IMG/VR virus record: IMGVR_UViG_3300031973_000420
Span: 1-23,358 of that record
DNA from: a virus
Reading direction: 5' to 3' (one strand)
Length of the DNA stretch: 23,358 nucleotides
The position numbers were made by a program, and so were the translations under genes. Shown here piece by piece: positions 14,420 to 20,670 of the stretch; positions within the stretch are counted from its first letter, which is position 1, and every line of letters begins with the position of its first letter. The notes beneath the pieces were generated by a model. It had not been told where the DNA came from. It was given only the letters and a program-made list of their open reading frames with translations, and ran no database searches.

Positions 14420-14638
14420 ATGAAAAAATACGTAATACTAGATAAAGATGAAGTATCATCAATAAAGTTTAGTGATGTTTTAGAACATAATGAAGAAACA
14501 TTAAGATATAAACTTGATGGTAGTCAAACGTTTGTAAAGTTTGTAGGTGAAACACCTTCTTGGTTAGAAGGTAAAACTATTTATAATAATGAAGAGTTTA
14601 TTTCATTATTAAATAATAGTGATAACGGTTGGATATAA
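14420..14638 (+). CDS. Small protein, unknown function
   Basis: This 72-residue protein runs from ATG 14420, just after the LamG stop; an upstream in-frame TTG (14405) lies inside the LamG gene and is less likely. The sequence reads MKKYVILDKDEVSSIKFSDV, then EETLRYKLDGSQTFVKFVGETPSWLEGK and a helical end (EEFISLLNNSDNGWI). The two halves, short beta strands then a helix, suggest a compact fold, perhaps a chaperone for the LamG protein. Its TAA overlaps the next ATG by one base. I recall similar proteins in marine phage contigs, always short and uncharacterized. Confidence 0.6.
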   Translation: MKKYVILDKDEVSSIKFSDVLEHNEETLRYKLDGSQTFVKFVGETPSWLEGKTIYNNEEFISLLNNSDNGWI

Positions 14639-14850
14639 TGGAAATATTTAAGAACGATAACAATTGGAACGAGAAAGCTGTAGTAGGCTTTATAGCTTTT
14701 GCAGTTATGTGTTTGATAATGGTTGCTGACTTAGTAACTGGTTGGGTTGGTCAAGATTTAATAATAAACGAATACGTATACAACTCATTTGTTTGGGTTG
14801 TACTTGGTTGCTTCGGTATATCAGGCGTAGAGAAGTTTGCAAATAAATAG
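14638..14850 (+). CDS. Two-TM small membrane protein, holin-like
   Basis: This 70-residue protein starts at ATG 14638, which overlaps the previous stop (TAATG). After a polar start (MEIFKNDNNWNEKA) it has two hydrophobic segments, about residues 15-36 (VVGFIAFAVMCLIMVADLVTG) and 47-65 (YNSFVWVVLGCFGISGVE), joined by a short loop and ending in a basic tail. Two membrane helices with short termini fit a class II holin or another small phage membrane protein. It is the second holin-like candidate in the window after the gene at 2182, and no endolysin is adjacent. Confidence 0.6.
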   Translation: MEIFKNDNNWNEKAVVGFIAFAVMCLIMVADLVTGWVGQDLIINEYVYNSFVWVVLGCFGISGVEKFANK

Positions 14851-16092: not shown

Positions 16093-16451
16093 TGGCGTAT
16101 AAACAAGTAAATAATCCGTATAAAGTTACTAGCTGTGGTAGACGTAGAACGTTTATGCAAGGTAATGACTTACCTAAAGATAGAACTGAAGGTCATCCGT
16201 TTAAAAAGCTAAGAAAAACTACTAGAGGTAAAGGTAGACATTTTCTTCACGCTGACGAAGGAGCTGGTATGACTGAAGCTGGTAGAAGAGCTTACAGAAA
16301 AGAAAATCCTGGTAGTACTTTATCCGCACCAGTTACAGGTAAGGTTAAAGCAGGTAGTAAAGCAGCAAAACGCAGAAAAAGTTTTTGCGCTAGATCAAGA
16401 AGCTGGAAAAGCGAAAGAGGTTTAGCTGCAAGACGTAGATGGAAATGTTAA
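16092..16451 (+). CDS. DUF6321-like basic cysteine protein
   Basis: This 119-residue, very basic protein contains the arrangement DEGAGMTEAGRRAYRKENPG, a spacer of about 20 residues, KRRKSFCARSRSWKSERGL and a final AARRRWKC. Invariant-looking cysteines in KSFCAR and the terminal RRRWKC match what I recall as the DUF6321 pattern of short phage proteins (glycine-rich start, KSFCAR centre, ...RRWKC end). Its function is unknown in the literature as I know it. The start overlaps the preceding stop by one base. The N-terminal MAYKQVNNPYKVTSCG resembles the previous gene, pointing to duplication or a shared targeting tag. Confidence 0.7.
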   Translation: MAYKQVNNPYKVTSCGRRRTFMQGNDLPKDRTEGHPFKKLRKTTRGKGRHFLHADEGAGMTEAGRRAYRKENPGSTLSAPVTGKVKAGSKAAKRRKSFCARSRSWKSERGLAARRRWKC

Positions 16452-16465
16452 ATATAAATAATAAA

Positions 16466-18955
16466 ATGAATAGAATAGTTTATCTTCTACTGTTTTTTAG
16501 TACAGTCTCTTTAGCTCAAGACAGTATACTTTATGATTGTGTAGGTAATGATGTTACTGAAATAATAGATTGGGTTGGTGATGGTTTTTGCGACGATGGA
16601 TCTTATTCTTGGGATGGTAACGATGTTTATTTTAACTGCGAAGAGTTCAACTTTGATGAAGGTGATTGTGTACCTCAAGAACAAATTCCTGGCTGCATAG
16701 ATGTGAACGCTTTAAACTATGTACCTGAAGCTACACTAGATGATGGAAGTTGTATATATCCTTTCTTTAACGATTTTGTCTGGGGATGTACAGATCCTGA
16801 AGCTATAAACTTTAATCCTTGGGCTGAAATAGATTTTAACTGCTTAACTAATGTTTGTAATGATGATCAATCATTAATAACAATTGAAGTTACTTTAGAT
16901 CAATACCCTAGTGAAACAGGTTGGATATTAACTGACGTATCTAACGGTCAACCTATAAAAGCTGTTAGCGCTAATAGCTATAACTACAATCAAGCTTACA
17001 GCACTATATCTTACAACGTGTGTATACCTGAGACTGGTGTTGAGTTTATATTAAGCGATACATATGGAGATGGTATGGAAAGTAGTAACTGGGGTAGTGA
17101 AGATGGTGATGTTGTTATACTTGGTGATGATTTACCTTGTGGAGATTTAGATACTTTATGGTCATTAGATAGTGCCAACTTTGGTAGCGCTGCTTACTCA
17201 GGTGTTATCTACTTAGATGTTTGTGAAGACCCTATGGTATTTGGTTGTACAGATCCTAACTACGTAGAATATAATCCTGAAGCTAATGTTGATAATGAAA
17301 CTTGTGTTAACCTACATAAGTTAGGATGTATTGATACGTCAGCTTTCAACTTTGACACTCTAGCTACAATAGAAGAAATAATACCAACTTGTGATTATAC
17401 TTTAATAATAGAAGATGATGCAGGTGACGGATGGGGTGGATGCTACTTAGGTATAGCACAGGAAGATTCTGTTATAGGTGAATACTATATGGAACCAGGT
17501 TTCTTTTCTAAAGAATACACTATACAGTTAGATACAGATAAACCAGTTAGTGTTTATTATTTTGAAATATCATTTGGTCAACAACCAATAGAAGAGTTAC
17601 AGTTCTCTTCAATGCAAAACTCTTTTAGATTAATAAACTCTGATGGAGTATTATTGACTCAAGGTGGTGTACACCCGTTTGCTAACAACGGTGCTGGTGC
17701 ACTACAACCTCACAAAGGTCCTTTCTGGAACAAGTACACAGCAACTCCTTACTGTGGAAACTATTGTATACCTAAAGTCTACGGGTGTACAGATTCACTA
17801 GCATATAATTTTGATTCACTAGCGAATACAAATGTTGGTTGTATAGAAGCTATTATTGGTTGTACTAATGAACTAGCTTTTAACTACGACTCTCTAGCTA
17901 ATGTAGATGATGGTCAATGTACGGCTATTGTTTATGGATGTATGGAGAACGATGCTTGGAATTACAACTACTTAGCAAACATCGAGGATAGTTCTTGTCT
18001 TTACTTTGGTTGTACAGATACTATAGCATTAAACTATGATTCAACTGCTAATGTAAATAATAGTTCTTGTGTATATCCTGTTTATGGTTGTACAAACCCG
18101 ATAGCTTTTAACTACGATGTAGAAGCTAATGTTAATGATGGTTCATGTGTACCAGTTATACTTGGTTGTATGGACGTAACAATGTTTAATTACAATGAAG
18201 AAGCAAACACAGCAATTGATAATTGTATTCCTTTTGTATTTGGCTGCACAGATATTACCGCTTATAATTTTGACCCTCTGGCCAACACTGATAACGAGTC
18301 TTGCATCCCAATAATACCTGGTTGTACTGATCCTATAGCTTTTAATTACAACGAAGAGGCTAATCAAGAAGACTTCTCTTGTGTTGACGTTGTTCTAGGA
18401 TGTACTGATTCATTAGCTTTTAATTATGATCCATTAGCTAATACAAATAACGATGCATGTATAAATGTAGCTGAAGGTTGTATGGATCAACTAGCTCATA
18501 ACTACGATGAGTTTGCTAACACAGAAAATGGTAGTTGTTTGTATGATGCTGGTTGTATTGACGGGCCTGGTAATCCTTACTGGTTAAATGATACATGTTA
18601 TGCTTGGGTTATTATGGTGGATTCATACTGTTGTAATACTGAGTGGGATGATAAATGCCAAGAGTTATATTGGAAGTGTGGTGGTGATAGTGAGTTAGAT
18701 GTTAGAGATTTAATGAGAACAGCTGACATAGCTATTTACCCAGTACCTATGGGTGATGAAGTTAATATATTAACTAAAGGTAAAGTCACTATTAGAATTT
18801 ACGATATTCAAGGTAAGCTTATTAAGCATGTAAGACAGAAGCAAACTATAAAAGGTTTAAATACTTTAAATGTAAAATATATACCATCAGGTTTATATAA
18901 CATTAGTGTAACTTATGATAACAAAACAATAACAAAGCAGGTAGTTAAGAGATGA
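16466..18955 (+). CDS. Secreted repeat protein with T9SS C-terminal sorting domain
   Basis: This 829-residue protein runs from ATG 16466, which starts a Sec signal peptide MNRIVYLLLFFSTVSLAQ and has an A-rich leader; in-frame ATGs at 16439 and 16445 lie in the previous gene. Order: an LNR-like cysteine segment (about 25-70, GDGFCDDG...FNCEEFNFDEGDC), then 14 GC(T/M/I)-type repeats with the core GCTDPxAxNYDxxANxxDxSC between 76 and 691 (ten in near-tandem from 440), with two beta domains between the early repeats. Residues 692-740 carry another cysteine-rich segment (SYCCNTEWDDKC). The end, from ADIAIYPVP to KTITKQVVKR (about 753-829), matches the type A T9SS sorting domain. The cargo should cross the outer membrane of the host. 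ATGA overlap couples it to the next gene. Confidence 0.88.
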   Translation: MNRIVYLLLFFSTVSLAQDSILYDCVGNDVTEIIDWVGDGFCDDGSYSWDGNDVYFNCEEFNFDEGDCVPQEQIPGCIDVNALNYVPEATLDDGSCIYPFFNDFVWGCTDPEAINFNPWAEIDFNCLTNVCNDDQSLITIEVTLDQYPSETGWILTDVSNGQPIKAVSANSYNYNQAYSTISYNVCIPETGVEFILSDTYGDGMESSNWGSEDGDVVILGDDLPCGDLDTLWSLDSANFGSAAYSGVIYLDVCEDPMVFGCTDPNYVEYNPEANVDNETCVNLHKLGCIDTSAFNFDTLATIEEIIPTCDYTLIIEDDAGDGWGGCYLGIAQEDSVIGEYYMEPGFFSKEYTIQLDTDKPVSVYYFEISFGQQPIEELQFSSMQNSFRLINSDGVLLTQGGVHPFANNGAGALQPHKGPFWNKYTATPYCGNYCIPKVYGCTDSLAYNFDSLANTNVGCIEAIIGCTNELAFNYDSLANVDDGQCTAIVYGCMENDAWNYNYLANIEDSSCLYFGCTDTIALNYDSTANVNNSSCVYPVYGCTNPIAFNYDVEANVNDGSCVPVILGCMDVTMFNYNEEANTAIDNCIPFVFGCTDITAYNFDPLANTDNESCIPIIPGCTDPIAFNYNEEANQEDFSCVDVVLGCTDSLAFNYDPLANTNNDACINVAEGCMDQLAHNYDEFANTENGSCLYDAGCIDGPGNPYWLNDTCYAWVIMVDSYCCNTEWDDKCQELYWKCGGDSELDVRDLMRTADIAIYPVPMGDEVNILTKGKVTIRIYDIQGKLIKHVRQKQTIKGLNTLNVKYIPSGLYNISVTYDNKTITKQVVKR
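16691..18538. repeat. Fourteen-copy protein repeat GCTDPxAxNYDxxANxxxxSC
   Basis: Fourteen copies of a unit of about 21-25 residues occur in the T9SS protein. Four are spread over 16691-17380, and ten run almost head to tail from 17783 to 18538. DNA copies are diverged, but several share blocks such as GGTTGTACnGAT and TTTAAnTACGAT. This is a coding repeat, not a spacer array. Confidence 0.9.
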
Positions 18956-20040
18956 TGAATAATATTAAAAACTGGTTACTACAAAGTTTAATAAGCATAG
19001 GTCTTGTTATATTATTTTCTTTTGTATTAATATCAATTACTAAATCTTGTAATGCTCAAGGTTTAAATAAGATATTAAAGTACTCTACATTTTACGCTGC
19101 AGTTAACGGTGGTACGTCTTTATCTGACGACCAAGTATGGTCTGTAACTTCAGGTACATTAGAAGAAGATGTTATTGAAACTCCTTTTGATTATACATTA
19201 TCTATAGGTATTAGAAAGATTAAAAGATTTGGTTATGAAAACAGAGCCAATACATTTTATAATGGTACTGAGAACTCTTATTCTGATGCAGCAACAGTAG
19301 GTAGAGTTGATGGGTTTGAATATCTATTTGAATATGATTTAGTAAGAAGATTAGGTATTAACTACACAAACCAAAATCACTTTGTAAGATATGTTGCAGA
19401 TAAATGGGTTGCTAAGATAGCTTATGTGGAAGATGGTTTTGCTGATATAAAGTATTTTGAGGCATCTCAGAGATACAGAAAACAAATTAATGAGGGTAAA
19501 CTATCTTTTAATATTGGAGCTGCACAGAGACTGTCTGAGCCATATGGATTTGATCCTCTTGCTGATTGGATATTAGATAATGGAACATTACATTATACAT
19601 ACCTAGCTCTACAAGAAGGTTATGATATTGACATGCAAGGTAATTACTTTAGTCCAGATGGTACTTTAGTAGCTAACAATCAAGAAGTTTGGGAAGAGGT
19701 TGTTATACCTGAAGTTATCGATAACTATGTTGATAAACAAAGAAATGCTTTAGATAATATTGTTGAATATTCTGTAATATTAGGATTTGACTATTATCAT
19801 TTTACAAAAGACTTTTGGTTTCACAGCTGGGGTAATTTAATGCCTTATCACTTAAAGTCTGATGATCAATACTCTTACTATAAATATAAAGGTGGACAGT
19901 GGGTTGATTACTCAACTGGTCTTATCTTTGGTTATAGATTTAATAAAAGCCTAGGTACTTTTATAGAAGGTAAATATAATAAGTACTGGAATAGAAGATG
20001 GCACAATTTTAGTATAGGAATTAATTACGTAATATTTTAA
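18952..20040 (+). CDS. Putative outer-membrane beta-barrel protein
   Basis: This 362-residue protein has a long N-terminal hydrophobic signal (about 10-32, SLISIGLVILFSFVLISITKS, ending SCNAQG). The rest alternates polar and hydrophobic residues in strands such as FDYTLSIGIRKIKRFGY, EYLFEYDLVRRLGINY, WVAKIAYVEDGFADIKYFEA, SVILGFDYYHFTKDFWF and a final HNFSIGINYVIF. The terminal phenylalanine with alternating aromatics fits the beta-signal read by the BAM complex. I recall this family from marine phage contigs, without a known function. It is translationally coupled to the T9SS cargo upstream and followed after two bases by the next gene. Possible roles are receptor masking, superinfection exclusion or envelope weakening. 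Confidence 0.7.
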   Translation: MMNNIKNWLLQSLISIGLVILFSFVLISITKSCNAQGLNKILKYSTFYAAVNGGTSLSDDQVWSVTSGTLEEDVIETPFDYTLSIGIRKIKRFGYENRANTFYNGTENSYSDAATVGRVDGFEYLFEYDLVRRLGINYTNQNHFVRYVADKWVAKIAYVEDGFADIKYFEASQRYRKQINEGKLSFNIGAAQRLSEPYGFDPLADWILDNGTLHYTYLALQEGYDIDMQGNYFSPDGTLVANNQEVWEEVVIPEVIDNYVDKQRNALDNIVEYSVILGFDYYHFTKDFWFHSWGNLMPYHLKSDDQYSYYKYKGGQWVDYSTGLIFGYRFNKSLGTFIEGKYNKYWNRRWHNFSIGINYVIF

Positions 20041-20042
20041 AC

Positions 20043-20327
20043 ATGGCAAAGGAATTAAATGAAGATACAACGCTAAAGCTAAGTATAAAAACATTAGCTG
20101 GTATAGCAGTACTTATATTTACGTTGGTAGGTATGTGGTTTACATTACAAGGAGATATAGCAGATGCTAAAGAATTACCTAAACCACCAGATCCTGAGAT
20201 TACTCGTATGGAATACGATATGAAAGATCAATTAATAAGACAAACCATTATGTCTACTCAAGATGATGTTAGAGAAATTAAAGATCAAATGATTAGAGTA
20301 GAAGAGAAGATAGATAAATTAAGATAA
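20043..20327 (+). CDS. Single-pass membrane protein with coiled coil, spanin/holin-like
   Basis: This 94-residue protein has a short charged N-terminus, one membrane helix at about residues 17-36 (LAGIAVLIFTLVGMWFTLQG), a proline-rich bend (ELPKPPDPE) and a charged coiled coil to the end (EYDMKDQLIRQTIMSTQDDV, REIKDQMIRVEEKIDKLR). This topology fits a small phage membrane protein with the coiled coil on one side, as seen in i-spanins and some holins, but no o-spanin lipoprotein is seen nearby. It starts two bases after the barrel gene. The exact role is unknown. Confidence 0.6.
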   Translation: MAKELNEDTTLKLSIKTLAGIAVLIFTLVGMWFTLQGDIADAKELPKPPDPEITRMEYDMKDQLIRQTIMSTQDDVREIKDQMIRVEEKIDKLR

Positions 20328-20331
20328 CTTT

Positions 20332-20670
20332 ATGAAAAATATTTTACTTATACTATTATTTCTACCTACAATAATACTTAGCCAAGACTTCCCTGATGGT
20401 TTAACTGTTGTAGAGTTTAATGCAAGCTTTAACAAACCAAACGAGGTTCAATGGTTAACTAAGTTAACTGATTGTGAGGTAGAAAGAGTAGATATTACTA
20501 CAGATTCTAGATGGGCTAGTGAGTACAAAATAGTTGTTGTACCCACTTTAGTTGTTTTTAATAATAACGAAGAAGCTAAAAGGTTTCAAGCAAATATTAT
20601 GATGACTATGGAAGCCACGTTAAGAGAAGTACAAGAGTCAGTCGATGAAATAATAATGGAAGCTTTTTAA
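20332..20670 (+). CDS. Exported thioredoxin-fold protein lacking the CxxC motif
   Basis: This 112-residue protein begins with a signal peptide (MKNILLILLFLPTIILSQ). The mature part follows the thioredoxin plan: TVVEFNASFNKPNEVQWL, where thioredoxins have VVDFWAxWCxxC, then DCEVERVDITTDSRWASEYK, the cis-proline strand VVVPTLVVFNNNEEAKRFQ, and a final helix. The CxxC pair is replaced (SFNKPN), and the single cysteine in LTDCEVE is not in the active-site position, so disulfide exchange is unlikely. It could be a binding or chaperone subunit in the periplasm. It lies in the envelope cassette, a few bases after the coiled-coil gene. Confidence 0.75.
   Translation: MKNILLILLFLPTIILSQDFPDGLTVVEFNASFNKPNEVQWLTKLTDCEVERVDITTDSRWASEYKIVVVPTLVVFNNNEEAKRFQANIMMTMEATLREVQESVDEIIMEAF

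Follow-up and report, generated by a model that had tools for sequence, protein, structure and literature searches.

What does a phage gain from a gene, set among its structural genes, whose product appears to be addressed to the surface of the bacterium that it infects? The question is raised by an open reading frame on the + strand of the window (the whole stretch of virus-record DNA analysed here, 23,358 bases), which encodes a predicted Sec signal peptide at one end and a sorting domain of the type IX secretion system (T9SS) at the other. The surroundings are those of a phage: the terminase of the window matches phrog_6681 (576 bits), the portal gene is phrog_6547, a virion structural protein of the capsid region is phrog_13704 and further virion structural proteins (phrog_14543 and phrog_13977) lie farther downstream. 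Relatives share a start reading MEML..., which points to 16439 as the start of the cargo gene, and this start also overlaps the upstream gene. The features discussed below are as follows.

14629-14850, + strand: 73-aa two-helix membrane protein, often near the cassette though not a fixed member
16439-18955, + strand: T9SS cargo gene, 838 aa (829 aa if ATG 16466 is used)
16466-16519, + strand: predicted Sec signal peptide MNRIVYLLLFFSTVSLAQ (sequence, by eye; hydrophobicity rule in homologues)
16691-18550, + strand: region with 14 GC[TIM][DNE]x5[FY]x3A repeats (pattern count)
18551-18685, + strand: CYAWVI-VD-YCC-WD-C-Y-C module (sequence conservation)
18734-18952, + strand: T9SS type A sorting domain, TIGR04183 / PF18962 (curated profile matches)
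18952-20040, + strand: predicted phage-specific 12-stranded outer-membrane beta-barrel (model and conserved context)
20043-20327, + strand: 94-aa membrane protein, cassette member (context; topology from sequence)
20332-20670, + strand: secreted thioredoxin-like protein, cassette member (Pfam match and context)

Elsewhere in the window, positions 1-652 hold the genes for a phage GroES and for the C-terminal part of a phage GroEL; two related phages, MW202828 and the cultured Flavobacterium phage immuto, also have both. The gene at 1073-1936 encodes a PAP2-family phosphatase (42.8 bits) with an HExxH motif (HESFH) in its N-terminal half, and may have arisen by the joining of a metalloprotease-like part to a PAP2 part. 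A small basic protein of KKSPAK-like repeats (1933-2181) precedes a three-transmembrane-helix (3TM) holin gene at 2182-2574.

The cargo protein and its sorting domain

A type A sorting domain had been proposed from the sequence alone, and comparison with the curated profiles bears this out, the C-terminus scoring above both cut-offs. PF18962 matched residues 757-826 of the 829-aa form with 42.1 bits (cut-off 27), and TIGR04183 matched residues 757-829 with 40.4-45.3 bits (cut-off 23), covering profile positions 1-72 of 72 and ending at the last residue of the protein. A profile built from ten homologues also matched two T9SS sorting domains of known structure (8glk_D with E 0.0018, and 8glj_D). 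Both TIGR04183 and PF18962 were matched by 54 of 56 cargo C-termini (E 0.01 or better); the two exceptions (L013 and L084) carry, by inspection, short DDGTVEKKIV-like tails instead. These C-termini diverge to as low as 23% identity with that of the window, and the sorting domain is under purifying selection (median dN/dS 0.16 in 25 closely related pairs). Since a useless signal would be expected to decay, the low dN/dS argues that the sorting domain is in use.

The Sec signal peptide named in the same reading is likewise supported. Judged by eye, the N-terminus (MNRIVYLLLFFSTVSLAQ|DS) is typical of a Sec signal, and a hydrophobic N-terminus was found by a simple rule in 117 of 122 distinct cargo homologue ORFs, at least two of the five others being other repeat ORFs. 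Between signal and sorting domain the protein runs through a Notch-repeat-like cysteine segment, two beta-rich-looking segments (these middle segments being named by eye), the repeats and the CYAW module. The pattern GC[TIM][DNE]x5[FY]x3A occurs exactly 14 times, against a maximum of one over 5,000 shuffles, with four repeats in the N-terminal half and ten in near-tandem array from 17783. The earlier count of 14 'GCTDP repeats' was thus exact in number and loose in wording, as the literal GCTDP occurs in only three of the 14. Neither an enzyme nor any domain known to block receptors could be recognised in this protein, which counts against the masking role proposed below. Its best-conserved part is the CYAWVI..YCC..WD module (81%, compared with 58% for the sorting domain), so that the body of the cargo itself probably acts.

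The same GC-x-D repeats were seen in very large ORFs that lack a sorting domain and sit upstream of the cassette in three relatives (L033:638-5338, L034:2-5359 and L047:732-5396), the first of them adjoining a tail-fibre-like ORF. The GC-x-D module may hence serve both an exported protein and the virion; its presence in these large ORFs fits either the masking of a shared target or an adhesin role.

A four-gene cassette and its distribution

A first scan gave 18 viral loci, 36-100% identical and many of them in the same context. Relatives of the neighbouring barrel gene were found in at least 586 stretches of IMG/VR, and a divergent query gave 505 (the two sets overlap). Taking the best 80 loci per scan, we obtained 140 distinct barrel genes, 71 of which had at least 4 kb before and at least 5.5 kb after them. 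In all 71 loci of this set, beyond which more distant barrels without the cassette could exist, the cargo, the 94-aa membrane protein and the thioredoxin-like protein lay within 6 kb, and with every partner present the set behaves as a cassette. Gene order is permuted in some lineages. The cargo stop overlaps the barrel start in 46 of the 71 loci; in the window the overlap is an ATGA at 18952, in agreement with the translational coupling of these two genes suggested earlier. Pairwise identities of the cargo C-terminus and of the barrel were correlated (rho 0.80), as were those of barrel and terminase (0.73), values that are descriptive only because the pairs are non-independent.

The cargo and barrel are nearly phage-specific. 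Among 84,980 species genomes the barrel profile hit only five contigs, all in metagenome-assembled genomes (MAGs); three of these (L179, L180 and L181) carry further cassette members and two (L182 and L183) end within the barrel gene. Within the family to which the L179-bearing MAG (titled Winogradskyella) belongs, a more sensitive barrel search covering 299 genomes found the barrel in that MAG only, and the cargo profile was found in one of 60 genomes of the same family, again the MAG holding this cassette contig. Two MAGs with cassette contigs had 39 and 15 T9SS sorting-domain matches. The TerL relatives of the window belong to phages of Flavobacterium, Cellulophaga, Tenacibaculum and Maribacter, and Flavobacteriia use T9SS.

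No relative of the cargo, the barrel or the coiled-coil protein was detected by tblastn among 50,697 named phage records, and the thioredoxin-like protein matched only Streptomyces phage thioredoxins there, over 33-37% of its length. In MW202828, the closest of the named phages (TerL identity 63.6%), the annotation shows no cassette between the capsid and tail genes and tblastn gave no match, so that the cassette is accessory. Queries with the CTD alone gave weak matches in two uncultured phage genomes of more than 600 kb (LR745206.1, 298444-298620; LR756502.1, 325928-326140) and in a gut phage record (MT836089.1, 10943-11152); these are possible further phage T9SS cargo.

The gene overlapping the end of the cargo had been described as encoding an outer-membrane-like protein, a description now backed by a structural model with 12 strands (pLDDT 78.5 from a 78-sequence alignment; an 11-sequence model was poor, with pLDDT 55). 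The best structural matches of the model were outer-membrane barrels such as KdgM, NanC and Tsx (Z about 10.5). Chain 8gl6_F of a T9SS complex scored Z 8.6, tied with many generic barrels, and a PorV-like identity was not separable from other barrels by fold search. At the sequence level, the barrel did not match as a member of the PorV or PorP-SprF families: no OMP family appeared among the Pfam matches of 78 members (E 0.1) and no PDB sequence matched at E 1. Conservation peaks in the segment between strands 2 and 3 (85%, compared with 76% for the strands), and a 74-residue segment between strands 7 and 8 is 71% conserved. With the usual orientation assumed, the model would place the first of these in the periplasm and the second outside; conservation at this level points to fixed partners and not to a loop that evades immunity.

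From its sequence, the 94-aa protein combines a single N-terminal helix with a probable periplasmic coiled coil that follows it. It matched no family, and no lipoprotein spanin partner was recognised in the cassette. The Pfam thioredoxin match of the product of 20332-20670 was just above threshold (23.8 bits, cut-off 23.5). In 89 of 92 thioredoxin-like ORFs NxxN stands where CxxC would be expected, and none of the 92 has CxxC, so that an ordinary disulphide oxidoreductase is unlikely. Together, the four cassette proteins would span the inner membrane, the periplasm, the outer membrane and the cell surface. The 73-aa two-helix protein encoded at 14629-14850 is strongly conserved (often > 85%), and its relative in immuto adjoins a putative chitinase and a holin; by analogy, it may be holin-like.

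Proposed surface display and competing explanations

Directed display of the cargo on the cell surface by way of T9SS, as part of a cassette, is in our judgement highly likely, because the cargo carries both predicted signals, the cassette is conserved, the sorting domain has been kept and the related phages infect Flavobacteriia, a group with T9SS. In the infected Bacteroidota host, the cargo would pass first through Sec and then through the T9SS translocon of the host to reach the cell surface, where it would act with the inner-membrane coiled-coil protein, the periplasmic thioredoxin-fold protein and the outer-membrane barrel. The four proteins could be joined in a single complex across the envelope, with the barrel anchoring or assisting the cargo as SprF does for SprB. 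Most likely, the surface of the infected cell would in this way be remodelled or masked, whether at receptors or at the gliding and T9SS adhesins that such phages use, and this would exclude superinfecting phage or spare progeny from adhering to a cell that is dying.

Gliding proteins are important for the adsorption of phages to Cellulophaga, where mutation of GldM leads to phage resistance and where SprB and RemA, both T9SS adhesins, are possible receptors (PMC13288928), so that covering or replacing this surface would protect the cell or prevent re-binding. A masking or exclusion role is nevertheless put forward tentatively, as a proposal with somewhat less than an even chance of being right, and the setting of the cassette, with structural genes around it, points to expression at a stage that would be late for superinfection exclusion of the classic kind. 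For the explanation as a whole (display, partners and a benefit from masking) we regard the case as evenly balanced.

Several other functions can be set against masking. The four genes might instead belong to a lysis or release cassette, in which the barrel, the coiled-coil protein and nearby holin-like genes disrupt the envelope late in infection, while the cargo detaches or shields debris and so frees progeny. Judged from sequence, the coiled-coil protein is laid out like an inner-membrane spanin, with one helix and a coiled coil; 49 of the 173 loci examined have a 3TM holin (phrog_3427, PF11351) no more than 3 kb away, and the setting of the 73-aa family in immuto, beside chitinase and holin, points the same way. 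The holin of the window, however, is about 14 kb off, and no holin relative was seen within 3 kb in most loci (some of which end early); the fixed four-gene set includes neither an o-spanin lipoprotein nor an endolysin, and an adhesin-like cargo with repeats is not among the known components of lysis. We consider such a function unlikely.

Less probable again is a virion-linked adhesin, whereby displayed cargo would be picked up by progeny, or its repeats would serve adhesion between particle and cell or between cells. The location of the cassette among structural genes would suit such a role, as would the repeat-bearing large ORFs of relatives with one beside a tail-fibre-like ORF, but a signal peptide and a sorting domain would route the protein out of the cytoplasm and so away from assembling particles. 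A further possibility, which we rank below the adhesin, is that cargo and barrel saturate or jam the translocon and so halt the display of host adhesins. Maintenance of the sorting domain would be expected of such jamming, and the possible receptor role of T9SS adhesins (PMC13288928) would give it a purpose, whereas a long, conserved cysteine-rich body would be unnecessary for it. Finally, an assembly chimera, or a host gene swept into a viral bin, was rejected as wholly improbable even though the sorting domain is otherwise of the kind found in host secreted proteins: a second contig (L002) is essentially identical, dozens of diverged and independent contigs share the same phage neighbours and, within the family searched, cargo (1/60) and barrel (1/299) each occur only in the MAG that holds the cassette contig, which upholds the sequence-only reading of a phage gene rather than contamination.

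In its broadest form, the display reading holds that many Bacteroidota phages carry a dedicated, phage-specific envelope machine of four proteins that hijacks the host T9SS and rebuilds the surface of the infected cell, a conjecture that we would place a little short of even; if true, this machine would open a new class of phage systems for excluding superinfection or taking over the surface. Use by phages of the Bacteroidota-specific T9SS has so far been noted only in passing, and a fixed four-gene cassette spread over hundreds of contigs from uncultured Bacteroidota phages would turn such use into a recurrent strategy. The cassette would also offer a concrete gene set to test and tie phages to the gliding and T9SS adhesins implicated in adsorption, while the barrel and the NxxN thioredoxin-like proteins are functionally uncharacterised families open to expression and study.

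Relation to known systems

In its layout the cargo resembles known T9SS type A cargo (8glj, 8glk), having a Sec N-terminus and a sorting domain of about 72 residues that ends at the last residue. It differs in being phage-encoded and in standing in a fixed four-gene cassette with a phage-specific barrel. The pairing of adhesin and barrel is similar to that of SprB and SprF, in which the gene of a surface repeat adhesin lies beside that of an outer-membrane barrel; the sorting domain of SprB, however, is of type B, whereas the cargo described here is of type A and the phage barrel has no Pfam OMP match. Phage-encoded outer-membrane proteins are also familiar from Llp of T5, Lc of phage PA-2 and Lom of lambda, which act in superinfection exclusion or surface change. 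Placing a phage-encoded protein in the host outer membrane is shared with these, although none of the three is known to use T9SS or to accompany an exported repeat protein.

Two precedents stand closer, and the idea of phage T9SS cargo is itself not new (PMC7468147; PMC6949934). Proteins with type A sorting domains are encoded by Cryophage, and it was proposed that this phage hijacks the secretion system of its host and excludes superinfecting phage (Bellas et al., 2020; PMC7468147). The Cryophage cargo consists of variable genes (endoglucanase, glycoside hydrolase 39 and PA14) in one phage (PMC7468147), whereas here a single conserved cargo family with constant partners extends over hundreds of contigs. 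In crAss-BACON cluster 2, sorting-domain ORFs lie near phage head genes; these ORFs have BACON repeats in place of the GC-x-D repeats of the present cargo and are not known to come with a cassette of barrel, coiled-coil and thioredoxin-like proteins (PMC6949934). Set against both, and within the open-access literature, what appears to be new is the conserved set of four genes, the barrel specific to phages within it and the spread of the cassette.
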